From positions 1-64,000 of the forward strand of contig NZ_JBCEXH010000002.1 in assembly GCF_038751955.1 (NCBI RefSeq): DNA of 64,000 nucleotides, given 5' to 3'. A program made the position numbers and the translations under genes. The stretch is from Methanocalculus natronophilus (GTDB lineage Archaea; Halobacteriota; Methanomicrobia; Methanomicrobiales; Methanocorpusculaceae). Below, piece by piece: positions 11,411-64,000 of this stretch; within the stretch, counting starts at the first letter, position 1; the number at the start of each line of letters is the position of its first letter. The notes under the pieces are model-generated. The model was not told the origin of the DNA, ran no database searches, and saw only the letters and a list, made by a program, of their open reading frames with translations.

Positions 11411-11769
11411 GGTTGTCTGATAGATGTTGGTGGTGACGGGGGATGAAGGGTGTGGATGAGTCTATAGCAGATCAGGGGGAGAGGTGAAGAGACGGGGTGT
11501 CACGATAGGCGGCTTCTGGCTGTTCCTCTGAAGAGATGGAGAAATTTTATCACTTTTAAGGTATTCAATAACACAAAGTTCGATCATTTGACGAGAATGT
11601 TTATTACACGTTCCAATCAATCATACAGTATCGGGATCCGCTGTGTGAGAGAGGAACACCCATTATTTCAGCGTTTGCTTCCTGGGGCTTCAATAAACGA
11701 GTGAAGAAAACAAAGCAGGCGATGTGGTGTTGCCCATAAAATGAATTTTTTTCTTTGGAGTTGTGTTCC
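11411..11769. other. Spacer upstream of the small membrane protein pair
   Basis: No gene is recognised in these 359 bases. AT-rich stretches around 11550-11580 (AAATTTTATCACTTTTAAGG) are TATA-like and could serve either flanking gene. The right end supplies a TTGGAG ribosome binding site for the gene starting at 11770. Confidence 0.4.
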
Positions 11770-11985
11770 ATGAAACAGAAAACAAAAGTTGGTTTGCTCA
11801 TAACCTCGTGCTTTTTCGTATTGCTTTTTCTTGCCATTATCCTCATACGTCATTATGAAGGCGCAATTCATGGGATTTCAGAGGGCGTGTTCATATTTGG
11901 AGTCACACTGGGAATGGCGTATGCATATGTCCTATCTCGCATAGATTCACACTTTACAAAACGGGGAGAGGGGGAAGCGTTATGA
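11770..11985 (+). CDS. Small two-helix membrane protein, unknown function
   Basis: The 71-residue protein begins at the ATG at 11770, which follows TTGGAGTTG; an upstream in-frame ATG at 11755 overlaps that site and is less likely. Two hydrophobic segments are visible (VGLLITSCFFVLLFLAIILI near residues 6-25 and ISEGVFIFGVTLGMAYAYVL near 36-55), with a short charged tail. It overlaps the next gene by four bases (ATGA), so the two are made together. I do not recognise the family. Confidence 0.65.
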   Translation: MKQKTKVGLLITSCFFVLLFLAIILIRHYEGAIHGISEGVFIFGVTLGMAYAYVLSRIDSHFTKRGEGEAL

Positions 11986-12317
11986 ATAGTACAGGTAGAG
12001 AGTGGATGATCGTCATTATTCTGCTATGCTGTATCGTTTTCAGCAATGGAATAGTGTATGCTACCGGTCATCTGGTTGAAGAGAATGAGATCGGATTGTC
12101 ACATACCCTGCTTTCGGTGACAGAAACAGAACAAGCCACACAAATTGCTTCAGATACGCACATTCAGGGCGATACAGTGGCCTATAGCGGATCTAAAAGT
12201 GTTTTTAGCGCTTTTTACCACCCTGTTCTTCTGGCAGGCACCATGCTTGGAGTTGTGCTCTTGTTTGTCGTCATATACTATCGCAAATGGAAGTGGAGAG
12301 AGGGAGAAAACAGATAA
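11982..12317 (+). CDS. Small exported/membrane protein, unknown function
   Basis: The 111-residue protein has an N-terminal hydrophobic signal or anchor (MIVIILLCCIVFSNGIVYATG), an extracytoplasmic stretch rich in Thr, Ser and Glu of about 55 residues, and a C-terminal membrane segment (LLAGTMLGVVLLFVVIYYRK) followed by a basic tail. The gene overlaps the upstream small membrane gene by four bases. No known domain is recognised. The two proteins may form a small membrane complex, which is an inference from their coupling. Confidence 0.65.
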   Translation: MNSTGREWMIVIILLCCIVFSNGIVYATGHLVEENEIGLSHTLLSVTETEQATQIASDTHIQGDTVAYSGSKSVFSAFYHPVLLAGTMLGVVLLFVVIYYRKWKWREGENR

Positions 12318-12348
12318 AACTGGTAATTGATCTCTTCTGCGTCACCCC

Positions 12349-12388
12349 CTGCCACGCCTGCAACAGGTGTAGCCCTGGAGGCTGGCAG
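12349..12388. other. Compact three-way-junction RNA-like element
   Basis: CUGCC (12349-12353) pairs with GGCAG (12384-12388). The enclosed bases form two hairpins, CGCCUG-CAA-CAGGUG (12355-12369) and AGCC-CUGGA-GGCU (12371-12383), with only one unpaired base before each. It lies between convergent genes, 31 bases after the membrane protein stop and 54 bases beyond the stop of the DUF4177-like gene. It could be a 3' UTR structure or processing signal for either transcript. The strand cannot be decided. Confidence 0.35.
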
Positions 12389-12442
12389 ATTATAACACAT
12401 CAACTATTCGGACTATCATCTTCTGCTTCAGCCTGAAGGCCA

Positions 12443-12586
12443 TCAATTGAGCGGTCTTTTGAAATAATGATAGATCCATACGACATCAACAAGTTCCCAT
12501 CCCTGCTGACCATATTCATTTAAAATTTTTGTTGTTCGTTCCCCCATCCCAACAATTGCCACACATAGATACTCATACTTTTGCAT
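12443..12586 (-). CDS. DUF4177-like small protein (47 residues)
   Basis: Reading the minus strand from the ATG at 12586 gives a 47-residue protein, MQKYEYLCVAIVGMGERT at the start and WELVDVVWIYHYFKRPLN at the end. The pattern of an N-terminal KYEY strand, an ILNEYGQQGWELV helix-turn and a terminal YFKRP strand is that of DUF4177, a family of very small proteins of unknown function. An AGGAGTGA ribosome binding site sits seven bases before the ATG. It is convergent with the small membrane gene pair. Confidence 0.7.
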   Translation of the reverse strand: MQKYEYLCVAIVGMGERTTKILNEYGQQGWELVDVVWIYHYFKRPLN

Positions 12587-12868
12587 TATCCGGTCACTCC
12601 TGGTTCTGTTGCTCTGTTTCTATCGTGAAACAGGATTCCCTGCTCATACTATCCTTCTACAGGAATGCTCATAAATATTGGTTTTTTTCCTGCCTCTGAA
12701 TCTCTTCTCTAAACATATGAGACAGGAGAGCTTGTTTCCCACCTCTGCTGGCAATCATCAAACTGTCTCCCGGTATAGGTATGATGCTATTTTGTTTGGA
12801 GGTCCCAGAGGATCAGGGATCATAGGTGGCAAATAGAGATGTATAGGTATAGTATCGCCGGAGCAGGC
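12587..12868. other. Spacer between the DUF4177-like and XRE-ImmA genes
   Basis: No gene is recognised. A minus-strand TATA-like CAATATTTATGAG around 12668-12680 could start the DUF4177-like transcript. The rest shows nothing I can interpret. Confidence 0.35.
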
Positions 12869-55612: not shown

Positions 55613-58600
55613 ATGTCGCAGACTATTGCAGCACGATTTGGGAACATGAAGATCGGGACGAAGATCCTGATCATCTCCCTTGCACTGATTATCATCCCGA
55701 CAACCCTTCTTGGCGTCGTCGCATACAATTCTGCAAGTGGAGCAATTGAAGAGCAGATAGAAGAACAGCTTGAGATACTTGCCCAGGAAAACCTGGATAA
55801 TATCGGGAATACCTATACAGTAACGATGCAGCTGGTTCAATCCGGCCTGAATGTCCTCAGGTACAACTTCCAGAGCCATGGAACACCGGAGATCCGTGAC
55901 GGGCAACTGGTGCTTGTTGATGCTGCGGGCGGGGTGTATGTTGTTAATGATAATCACCAGATCGTTGATGGCATCTCCCGCCAGTTTGACGGAGCAGCAG
56001 CCACCATCTTCCAGGTGAGGGACAACCAGGCGATACGGATTGCAACCTCGGTCTATGGTGCAGACGGAAGGCGCGTTGTCGGGACACCGGTTGCACAGGA
56101 TGTCTATGATGTGGTGGTTGTACGCGGAGAGACATTCTATGGAGAAGCCAATGTGGTTGGTGTCGACTATATCACCGCCTATGAGCCGATCCGCGGACCT
56201 GGCGGGAATGTGATCGGCATCCTCTTTGTGGGCATCCCTCAACGCGAGACACTCGGTGTAGTGCATGAGAGTATCCGGGATTAGGTCATCGGCATAAACG
56301 GGTATATGTATATCATGGACAGTACCGGGGACCTGATAGTCCATCCACACATTGAAGGGGACAATGTCGGCCAGCATGAGTTTGCACGCGATATCATCGC
56401 GCAGCAGGAAGGCATCATGCATTACTTCTGGGAAGGCGAAGATAAGATCGCCGCATTCACCTATTATGCTCCCCTTGATTACTATATCGTCGCCGGTGCG
56501 GACTGGGTGGACTTCACAGGACCGATAAATGATATCAGGAATGCAATTCTGATCATCGTCATCGGTGCGATTATCATAGGCGGTGCAATTGCTGTTCTCT
56601 TCGGGAGAGGTATCGCACGCAGGATGGATGATCTTGTCAATCTCGGCAGGCGTGTCCAGGACGGGGATTTCTCCGGAACAGTCCAGACAGATACGAGCGG
56701 TGATGAGATTGGCCAGGTGGCAGGCGCATTCGGCGGCGTCGTTGCGACGATCCAGCAGTTCGGCTCAGAGATGAACATGATCAGTGCCGCCGCCACCGAG
56801 GGGCGGCTTGACACCCGGGGCGATGCAACAAAATTCAAGGGCGACTATGGAGCAATCATCGGTGGTGTCAATGAAACACTTGATGCAATCATCGGGCCGC
56901 TCAATGTTGCAGCAGAATATGTCGACCGCATCAGCAAGGGAGATGTGCCGGAAAAGATCACCGAACACTATTCCGGAGACTTCTATGAAGTGAAGGAGAA
57001 CCTGAATGCCTGTATCGATGCGGTGAATTTACTCGTTGAAGATTCATTAGTGCTATCAGAGGCAGCGATGGAAGGAAAACTCAGCACACGTGCAGATGCA
57101 GCAAAACACAGGGGAGACTTCAGGAAGGTTGTGGATGGTGTCAACAACACGCTTGATGCCGTCATCGGGCCGCTCAATGTTGCAGCAGAATATGTTGACC
57201 GCATCAGCAGCGGAGACATTCCTGAGAAGATAACAGACAACTACAACGGAGACTTCAACGAGATAAAGAACAACCTCAATACATGCATCGATGCAGTGAA
57301 TCTCCTCGTTGCAGATGCTAACATACTATCAAAAGCAGCGGTTGAAGGACAACTTGATACACGGGCAGATGCATCTAAGCACCAGGGAGACTTCAGAGCA
57401 ATCGTTGATGGCGTCAATCAAACCCTTGACGCCGTCATCGGGCCGCTCAATGTTGCAGCAGAATATGTCGACCGCATCAGCAGCGGAGACATTCCTGAGA
57501 AGATAACAGACAACTACAATGGAGACTTCAACGAGATAAAGAACAACCTCAATACATGCATCGATGCGGTGAATCTCCTCGTTGCAGATGCTAACATACT
57601 ATCAAAAGCAGCGGTTGAAGGAAAACTCAGCACCCGTGCAGATGCTTCGAAACACCAGGGAGACTTCAGAGCAATAGTCGATGGTGTCAATCAAACCCTT
57701 GACGCCGTCATATCCCCGGTGAATGAGACGATCAGAATAGCCGATGCTTTTGCCAATGCCGACTTCAGTGTCCGATTCTCAGATGAGATTGCTGCCAAGG
57801 GCGATATGGAGCAGCTGAAGAAATCTCTGAATAACGTCAGTACTCAAATATCGAGCGCAGTCGCAGAAGTCAGCCGGATGATGGGCGAACTCGCCGCCAT
57901 CTCTGAGGAAGCAAACGCCAGTATCGAAGAGGTCTCCTCAAGTGCCCAGCAGGTCGCACGCAACACCGGTAAAGTCAGCGAGAACTCCGAGAAGGCAAAC
58001 AACGGCGGCCAGCAGGTGCTCAGGGCAATGGAAGACCTCTCTGCAGCAGTTGAGGAGGTTACCTCGAATGCCGAGTCGGTTGCCGCACTCGCACGGAATG
58101 CAAACGACCAGTCAAAGGAAGGGGCAAGGCTTGCCGCTGCCGCTGAGCAGGGAATCGGCGAGATCAGCCAGTCCACAGGAGATGTTGACCAGATCATCAA
58201 GGGCATCAACGAGCAGATGGAGCAGATCGGAAAAATTGTCGGGCTTATCGCAGACATCTCCAACCAGACAAACCTGCTCGCACTCAATGCCGCAATCGAG
58301 GCAGCACGGGCTGGAGATGCGGGACGCGGATTTGCAGTTGTTGCAGCTGAAGTCAAATCACTTGCACAGGAGTCGGGATCATCGGCTGAGAATATCGCCA
58401 ACATGATCGGAGAACTCCAGGCACAGGCGAAGAAGGCAGCCGAGGCGATGGGAACCGCAAACACTGCTGTTGAAGCCGGATCTGAACAGATGGAGAAGAC
58501 GATTTCCGCATTCAACGATATCGTCGATGGTGTCGAGAAGATCTCACGTGCCATTGAGGAGGTTGCCAGTGCCGCAGAAGAGCAGGCGGCAACCGTTGAG

Positions 58601-58789
58601 GAGATCACAGCAAGCGTTCATGAAGTCACAGGACTGATCGAGGAGAATGCTAAAGAAGCAGGTGATGCAGCAGCTGCAACCGAAGAGGCTTCTGCAGGCA
58701 TTGACGAGGTCGCCAATATGATCCAGAACGTCAGTTCAGTTGCGAACAAGACACTCCAGGCGAACCAGAAGTTCAGGCTGGCAGAGTAG
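55613..58789 (+). pseudogene. Methyl-accepting chemotaxis protein interrupted by in-frame TAG (MCP1)
   Basis: One reading frame runs 1,058 codons but has a TAG at 56282-56284 (codon 224). The N-terminal part has a membrane helix (ILIISLALIIIPTTLLGVVA) and a Cache-type sensor domain, which continues after the stop ([20 protein letters not shown]). Then follow a second membrane helix ([20 protein letters not shown]), HAMP, a poly-HAMP array of 273-base repeats, and an MCP signalling domain with [20 protein letters not shown]. The paralogue at 61187 has ACC (Thr) at the same codon number. A single nonsense mutation is simplest, but readthrough or pyrrolysine cannot be excluded. CheW follows after 11 bases. 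The 3' half from 56306 has no ribosome binding site. Confidence 0.8.
56894..57712 (+). repeat. 273-base tandem repeats encoding HAMP pairs in MCP1
   Basis: Three units with a 273-base period begin at 56894, 57167 and 57440 (marker GGGCCGCTCAATGTTGCAGC). Each codes for 91 residues, about two HAMP-like modules ([20 protein letters not shown] and [20 protein letters not shown]). The second and third units are almost identical at DNA level, the first is more diverged. The array ends where the sequence changes to [14 protein letters not shown] before the signalling domain. Confidence 0.88.
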
Positions 58790-58800
58790 GTGGATGCACT

Positions 58801-59313
58801 ATGGTAAGTGAGGCACAACGGGAAGACGCGGGCTCAATAGCCGGATCGATCCAGGTTGTTGAGTTCATCCTCGGGGATGAGAAGTTTGCAATCGACCTCT
58901 TCGAGGTTCGGGAGGTGGTAGAGTATACCAGGATCTCTGCTCTCCCAAACTCTCCCTCCTATATCAAGGGGATCATTGACTTACGGGGCGAGATCACCAC
59001 CATCATCGATCTGAAGGAACGACTGAATATCAGGAGCTCCGACCGGGCAGAGGAAGAGTCCCGGATCATCGTCCTTGATGAGAATATCACAAAGAAGAAG
59101 GTCGGGATCATGGTCGATGATGTCCTCTCTGTCTCGACATTCGAGATGAGCCAGGTGGATGAGACTGGTGCGGCAGATGATACCGATGAAGATTCATGCA
59201 TTCTTGGGATCATCAAGAAGAAAGGGCAGGCAAAGGAGAGGGATGCAACCGATCTGATCATCTGGGTCGATATCAAACAGCTCCTCGGGGAGATGCTGAA
59301 GACATTACCATGA
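58801..59313 (+). CDS. cheW: CheW coupling protein
   Basis: The 170-residue protein matches CheW, which connects chemoreceptors to CheA. Family elements are VVEFILGDEKFAIDLFEVRE, YIKGIIDLRGEITTIIDLKE and VGIMVDDVLSVSTFEMSQVD. It follows MCP1 by 11 bases and overlaps the next receiver gene by four bases, giving an MCP-CheW-receiver-kinase operon. CheA is not encoded in this window. Confidence 0.94.
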   Translation: MVSEAQREDAGSIAGSIQVVEFILGDEKFAIDLFEVREVVEYTRISALPNSPSYIKGIIDLRGEITTIIDLKERLNIRSSDRAEEESRIIVLDENITKKKVGIMVDDVLSVSTFEMSQVDETGAADDTDEDSCILGIIKKKGQAKERDATDLIIWVDIKQLLGEMLKTLP

Positions 59314-61186: not shown

Positions 61187-64000
61187 ATGGCACAGGGCTT
61201 ATCAGCCAGGTTTGGCAATATGAAGATCGGGACGAAGATTCTGATCATCTGTCTTGCACTTGTTATCATCCCGACGGTGCTCCTCGGGGTTATGGCATAT
61301 AATTCGGCAAGCGGGGCGATTGAAGAACAGATTGAGACAGAATTTACACTTCGTGTAACAGAGAACCTGCAGCAGACGGATGCAACCTATACGCTCACCA
61401 TGGATCTCTTAATGTCGAGCATGAACGTCCTCAGGTACGATTTCCAGGCAAGAGGAACACCTGAGATCCGTGACGGGCAGCTGGTGCTTGTTGATGCCGC
61501 GGGTGAGGAGTATGTTGTTAATGACAACCACGAGATGGTCGATGGCCTCTCCCGCCAGTTTGACGGAGCAGCAGCCACCATCTTCCAGGTGAGGGACAAC
61601 CAGGCGATCCGGATTGCAACCTCGGTCTATGGTGCAGACGGAAGGCGCGTTGTTGGAACACCACTTGCACAGGAGGTCTATGATGTGGTGGTTGTACGCG
61701 GAGAGACATTTTATGGTACTGCCAATGTGGTTGGTGTCGACTATATCACCGCCTATGAGCCGATCCGCGGACCTGGCGGGAATGTGATCGGCGTCCTTTT
61801 CACCGGTGTCCGGGAAGACGCGACACTTGGTGTTCTAATGGATCAATTTAGAGATACCGTCGTTGGAGAGACAGGATACATCTATATCCTCGATTCTGAT
61901 GGAAACTTAATTCTCCACCCGGAAATGGAAGGAGAGAGTGTTGCCCACCTGGATTTCATCCAGGATATCCTGAGAGAGCAGGAAGGGCTTACCCGGTACT
62001 TCTGGGAGGGTGAAGATAGGATCGTCGCCTACACCTACTATGAGCCTCTCGACTGGTACATCGCTGCCGGTGCGGACTGGGCAGACTTCACGGGACCGAT
62101 AAATGATATCAGGAATGCGATTTTAATCATCGTCATCGGTGCGGTTATCATCGGGGGTGCAATTGCTGTTCTCTTCGGGAGAGGTATCGCACGGAGGATG
62201 GAGGATCTCGTCAATCTCGGCAGGCGTGTCCAGGACGGGGATCTCTCAGGGGAGATTCAGACAGACACAGGCGGCGATGAGATCGGCCAGGTGGCAGAGG
62301 CATTCGGCGGCGTTGTTGCGACGATCCAGCAGTTCGGCTCAGAGATGAATATGATCAGTGATTCCGCAAGCGAAGGCAAGCTGGATGTCAGGGGCGACGC
62401 CGCAAATTTCAAGGGCGATTATGCGAATATGATCCATGGGGTCAACGACATCCTTGACGCCGTCATCGGGCCACTCAATGTTGCGGCAGAATATATCGAC
62501 CGAATCAGTGAGGGGCAGATACCTGATCCGATCACCGATGACTACAAAGGCGACTTCAACGAAATCAAGAATAACTTCAATAAATGTATCAATGCGATAA
62601 ACCTCCTCATTGAGGACGCAAATTTGCTTTCCGGATCGGCAATTGAAGGAAGGCTGGATACACGTGCAGATGCATCAAGGCACCAGGGAGACTTCAGGAA
62701 GATCATCACCGGTGTCAATGATACGCTTGACGCCGTCATCGGGCCACTCAATGTTGCGGCAGAATATATCGACCGGATCAGTGATGGCCAGATTCCAGAG
62801 AAGATCACCGATGATTACAAGGGAGACTTCGCCGAGATCAAGAACAATCTTAACAAGTGCCTGGCTGCCATAACGCTCCTTGTCAAGGATTCAAACATGC
62901 TTGCAGATGCAGCAATTGAAGGTCAGCTTGACACCCGTGCAGATGCAGAGGAGCATGAAGGCGACTTCAGGCTGGTTATTGAGGGATTAAATAATGTTCT
63001 TGATGCCGTTGTCAAGCCCATCAAAGGAATGGGCGGAGCGATGAACAAGATCAGCAAAGGCGATATCCCCGAGAAGATCAGCCGTGAGTTCAAAGGCGAG
63101 TATAATGAACTGAAGGATAGTGTGAACCGGTGCATTGATGCAATCAACATGCTTATCGATGATGCAAACCTCCTCGCCGGGGCAGCTGTTGAAGGAAAGC
63201 TCGCCACCCGTGCAGATGCATCCAAGCACCAGGGAGACTACAGGAAAGTCATTGACGGGTTGAACAACACCCTTGACGCGGTCGTCCAGCCGGTGAACGA
63301 GGTCATCAGGATTGCAGATTCCTTTGCCAATACCGACTTCAGCACAAGCTTCTCTGAAGACGTCCCGGCAAAAGGTGACATGGAGCGGCTGAAGAACGCA
63401 CTCAATAACGTCAGTGCCCAGGTGTCTGAGTCGATCGGTGAAGTCAACCGGATGATGGGCGAACTGGCAGCCATATCTGAAGAGGCAAACGCAAGCGTCG
63501 AAGAGGTCTCATCCGGCGCCCAGCAGATTGCACGCAACACCGGTAAAGTCAGCGAGAACTCCGAGAAGGCAAACAACGGCGGCCAGCAGGTGCTCAGGGC
63601 AATGGAAGACCTCTCTGCAGCAGTTGAGGAGGTCACCTCGAATGCCGAGTCGGTTGCCGCACTCGCACGGAATGCAAACGACCAGTCAAAGGAAGGAGCA
63701 AAGCTTGCCTCTGCCGCTGAGAAGGGAATCGGCGAGATCAGCCAGTCCGCAGAAGATGTCGACCAGATCATCAAGGGCATCAACGAGCAGATGGAGCAGA
63801 TCGGAAAAATTGTCGGCCTGATTTCTGACATCTCCAACCAGACCAACCTGCTCGCACTCAATGCCGCAATCGAGGCAGCACGGGCAGGAGATGCTGGACG
63901 CGGATTTGCAGTTGTTGCAGCTGAAGTCAAATCACTTGCACAGGAGTCGGGATCATCGGCTGAGAATATCGCCAACATGATCGGAGAACTCCAGGCACAG
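61187..64000 (+). CDS. Methyl-accepting chemotaxis protein, partial at window end (MCP2)
   Basis: The reading frame is open for 938 codons and leaves the window inside the signalling domain. ATG 61187 has AGGAGGAGA upstream. Domain order equals MCP1: membrane helix ([20 protein letters not shown]), Cache sensor ([20 protein letters not shown], then [19 protein letters not shown]), second helix, HAMP, poly-HAMP repeats and MCP signalling domain ([19 protein letters not shown]). Codon 224 is ACC, where MCP1 has TAG. Long tracts of the Cache and signalling domains are nearly identical in DNA to MCP1. The ligand is unknown. Confidence 0.95.
62468..63013 (+). repeat. 273-base tandem repeats encoding HAMP pairs in MCP2
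   Basis: Two units with a 273-base period begin at 62468 and 62741 (marker GGGCCACTCAATGTTGCGGC), encoding 91 residues each, and a third more diverged unit follows. The period is the same as in MCP1, but the sequences differ more between units. Confidence 0.8.

Follow-up and report, generated by a model that had tools for sequence, protein, structure and literature searches.

Methyl-accepting chemotaxis proteins that combine a Cache_3-Cache_2 sensor domain (PF17201) with tandem HAMP_2 repeats (PF18947) are a known receptor type, with homologues throughout Methanocalculus and also in other Methanomicrobiales. MCP1, a chemoreceptor gene in the stretch of 64,000 nucleotides analyzed here (hereafter the window; contig C2:1-64000 of Methanocalculus natronophilus), has the same domains in the same order if one stop codon is ignored. 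It differs from these receptors in being interrupted at codon 224 by an in-frame TAG, which is true of none of the homologues examined. Methanogens in other lineages read UAG as pyrrolysine, and the genes that encode this residue there (such as mtmB) likewise carry an in-frame UAG. Ordinary nonsense pseudogenes of redundant prokaryotic signaling genes, in turn, share with MCP1 a single stop in a duplicated gene that is intact otherwise. Our comparison of sequences favors the pseudogene: MCP1 is probably a dispensable duplicate receptor that was truncated by a recent nonsense substitution, an ordinary finding.

The MCP1 frame starts at an ATG (55613) and is 1058 codons long when read through. 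Codon 224 is its sole internal stop, which separates 223 sense codons from the 834 that follow; the terminal stop (58787–58789) is also TAG. Pfam searches of the two halves returned PF00015, PF00672, PF18947, and PF17201, the domains of a methyl-accepting chemotaxis protein (transmembrane (TM) helices were read from the sequence only). The Cache_3-Cache_2 model spans the stop, with profile positions 2–196 matched upstream and 200–298 downstream. Both halves belong to one gene; chance is ruled out. A first-pass annotation, made from the window alone, had described an in-frame amber codon whose flanks align across it with a paralogue, MCP2, in a gene otherwise intact and followed at once by cheW. 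Each of these observations held: the frame is open on both sides of the TAG, the Cache model continues over it, the 834 downstream codons are open, and cheW comes next. A codon alignment also bore out the reported ACC in MCP2 opposite the TAG, without an indel. The tandem copy MCP2 (61187–64363) and its own cheW occupy 61187–64878, and the MCP2 sensor is 78% identical to that of MCP1 over the first 223 residues. The genome is a 2.0 Mb draft in 143 contigs, 99.7% complete.

Table 1. Coordinates of the MCP1 locus, its paralogue, and the corresponding relic in a sister species (window positions unless stated).
Feature	Position	Strand	Remark
MCP1 5' part, 223 codons: TM helix 1 and initial part of the Cache_3-Cache_2 sensor	55613..56281	+	
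In-frame TAG, codon 224	56282..56284	+	Sole internal stop among 69 spanning homologous matches
MCP1 3' part, 834 codons and terminal TAG: remaining Cache, TM2, HAMP, four HAMP_2 repeats, MCP signaling domain	56285..58789	+	
cheW directly 3' of MCP1	58801..59313	+	PF01584, E 5.9e-31
MCP2, intact paralogue	61187..64000	+	Extends to 64363, past the window end; second cheW then starts at 64375
Receptor relic and shortened cheW	L025 (G001:C1:232000-251900), about 11703-12803	-	Large internal deletions

In homologues, the frame broken by this stop is intact. Of 150 Methanomicrobiales genomes searched with a 171-residue query over the site, 50 gave matches, 80 in all; 69 of these, counted from the list of matches, span the codon-224 site, and MCP1 alone is interrupted by a stop. 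Conservation of UAG, the mark of a pyrrolysine-encoding gene, was absent, as the 68 other spanning matches are free of stops. Within the genus, the residue at codon 224 is mostly Thr, but also Ala, Arg, or Met (a codon table of 14 rows, one of which, G004b, falls short of the column). We also compiled a broader column of 68 rows, the window plus 67 relatives, by removing sequence duplicates from a set of 114 loci; L039–L045 (seven genus records presumed to duplicate included stretches), L030, and L035 lay outside that set. The relatives carry T (28), I (19), K (7), V (5), A and M (3 each), and R and Q (1 each), a variety that marks the position as tolerant. Codons one base from TAG occur in 6 of the 67, one of them being the Gln codon of a receptor relic in the sister species G001. 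Against a nonsense substitution, TAG differs by two or three bases from the codons that intact homologues in the genus have at this site, so an origin in a single step needs an ancestor that resembled the relic's Gln codon or had a Lys codon.

MCP1 carries little trace of decay. Relative to G005a, its nearest homologue, dN/dS (Nei-Gojobori) was 0.094 for codons 1–223 and 0.096 for codons 225–1058, and for MCP2 it was 0.169 before and 0.127 after codon 224; these ratios are rough, as synonymous sites are near saturation (pS 0.5–0.7 for MCP1 versus G005a). Residue changes specific to the MCP1 lineage showed no clear excess 3' of the stop (49 versus 61 with G001 as outgroup, 71 versus 62 with G002a), and the same count with MCP2 as outgroup, 39 versus 91 for MCP1, is affected by gene conversion. 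A search of MCP1 for relaxed constraint or further lesions found neither: it has no other stop or frameshift, and dN/dS is about 0.1 on both sides. A tree of the 13 sensor domains places MCP1 close to G005a, at a weakly supported fork and on a branch (0.19) that is not unusually long. The low dN/dS on both flanks implies that little time has passed since the stop arose, and the lack of decay 3' of it leaves three options: a recent stop, an error, or bypass; the undecayed state of MCP1 is compatible with a recent event.

Unlike in ordinary nonsense pseudogenes, decay in MCP1 is so far unmeasurable. As would be usual for such pseudogenes, a more decayed relic stands at the corresponding place in the sister species G001. 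There, the position of the first receptor holds segments matching MCP1 residues 140–157 and 153–307 in two frames, followed by residues 1004–1058, next to a shortened cheW; residues 1–139 and 308–1003 are gone, and the frame breaks near residue 153. The relic was matched to MCP1 by position and similarity, and its neighbors are HAD-phosphatase and thermosome-like genes, as at the MCP1 locus (named by eye, with HAD alone backed by a profile match). The second receptor is intact in G001, and both are intact in G002. That only a relic stands in place of the first receptor indicates that the genus can do without it.

The MCP1-cheW and MCP2-cheW2 pairs show patchy near-identity, at window positions 55901–56218 and 57901–59129, with identical runs of up to 123 bases. 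Blocks in the signaling domain and the start of cheW are 92–100% identical, and a block of 89–95% identity ends just before the stop. Synonymous difference between the two receptors is 0.20 in the signaling domain versus 0.65 in the HAMP_2 repeats. Gene conversion thus appears to move sequence between the copies. The TAG itself is outside the shared stretch, as the identical run of at least 50 bases nearest to it ends at 56218. Conversion by MCP2 could in principle restore or re-silence the sensor, making MCP1 a reversibly silenced receptor that switches on and off within a population, an idea that we regard as far-fetched. The duplicated Cache receptors of Methanocalculus turn over: one copy is stopped here, only a relic of its counterpart survives in a sister species, and the copies apparently swap segments.

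Pyrrolysine decoding was assessed across the genome. The earlier report that pyl genes are missing, which covered the window only, extends to the whole assembly for pylS, pylC, and pylD: in profile searches, every match to PylS and PylD fell below the curated cut-off, and PylC had no match at E≤0.001, nor did the methylamine methyltransferase MtmB. Methanosarcina acetivorans was among the matching controls in the PylS search, in which one control exceeded the cut-off, and was the only control with an MtmB match. The sub-cut-off PylS matches are as expected for other synthetases. For tRNAs, there were 42 Rfam matches, and ARAGORN called 40 as intronless and 2 as intron-containing; a CTA anticodon was absent from all of them, although Tyr and Trp are missing and the list is therefore incomplete; tRNA-Pyl is poorly fitted by the general tRNA model. 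One tRNA-like gene, L180 (G000:C4:224050-224450), has a long intron and was called Glu(ctc) by ARAGORN, and by eye its loop could be that of Trp (CCA). As the first-pass annotation had noted, TAG also ends other genes: it terminates MCP1 itself and 37 of 244 sampled long open segments (shadows included), and since UAG ends ordinary genes here, it is an ordinary stop in this genome. On the strength of the PylS, PylD, PylC, MtmB, and tRNA searches (the last with an incomplete list), we rejected pyrrolysine or a suppressor tRNA at MCP1; pyrrolysine decoding of this TAG is very unlikely. Among the papers found in searches on Methanocalculus with chemotaxis or with pyrrolysine, none has a title that touches on this subject. 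MCP1 thus differs from pyrrolysine-encoding genes in that its UAG is not conserved and its genome yielded neither pyl genes nor mtmB; finding an amber codon in frame in a methanogen gene does not on its own indicate pyrrolysine.

A scan of 495,664 bases, roughly one quarter of the genome, picked out 103 stops with coding-like sequence on either side. We judged these candidates by eye, 12 of them in translation, and almost all appear to be gene boundaries or antisense frames. Within this sample, wider recoding of TAG was rejected, the single clean further case being a TAA. It lies on the same contig in a second broken sensory gene, a membrane PAS protein (G000:C2:120941-122674, minus strand; L155), at 122333–122335; homologues in G003, G006, and G007 (53–56% identity) span the site without a stop. 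Lesions are therefore not specific to amber codons. The broken PAS gene agrees with ordinary nonsense change among redundant sensory genes, and could alternatively be a sign of wrong bases in the draft. The scan also met a short ORF fragment with a TAG (G000:C2:332194, minus strand) that looks decayed on both sides and presumably resembles the PRiA4_ORF3 family.

A recent nonsense substitution accounts for the observed stop, its intact flanks, the intact homologues, and the missing pyrrolysine machinery, provided that the TAG base is real. A single-position base-call or assembly error would fit equally well: codon 224 would then be a sense codon and the receptor intact. We consider such an error possible, if on balance unlikely. 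One base could suffice, given the codons one base from TAG in 6 of 67 relatives; the remainder of MCP1 is under normal constraint, and the genome is a draft in 143 contigs. Very poor coverage is, however, hard to reconcile with a contig of 355,664 bases, mixing of paralogues is unlikely at a base outside the stretches shared with MCP2, and the loss of the corresponding receptor in G001 makes a real loss plausible. The undecayed 3' part is expected under an error and under real readthrough as well, and so counts against a mutation. Readthrough of the TAG to a full-length receptor, whether by pyrrolysine, a suppressor tRNA, or a programmed mechanism, would agree with the low dN/dS on both flanks and with the use of UAG in other methanogen lineages. 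The pyl and mtmB searches with their positive M. acetivorans control, the lack of a CUA anticodon among the recognized tRNAs (an incomplete list), the absence of the stop from every homologue, and the TAA in the second broken gene make it extremely improbable. The preference for mutation or error over pyrrolysine in the first-pass annotation is strengthened by these genome-wide searches, the PAS gene, and the receptor loss in G001.

The nonsense reading also supposes that the 3' part gives no working product. Translation could instead restart at ATG 56306 or 56318, the 8th and 12th codons past the stop, to make a receptor that lacks TM helix 1 and the greater part of the sensor, so that the gene would function in two pieces. 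The frame is open from there to the end and constraint 3' of the stop is normal, but by eye neither ATG is preceded by a Shine-Dalgarno-like GGAG or GGTG, and the split version is absent among relatives; we think a restart most improbable. If MCP1 is truncated by a nonsense substitution, translation would end once the first part of the extracellular sensor has been made; the resulting fragment would be TM-anchored but lack the HAMP and signaling domains, and the receptor would be lost. Chemotaxis machinery looks present, to judge from the gene content: the genome has four genes with an MCP signaling domain (MCP1 among them), one match to the CheA dimerization domain, and archaellin-family genes. 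Without MCP1, the cell would have one input fewer, for which MCP2 might partly compensate.
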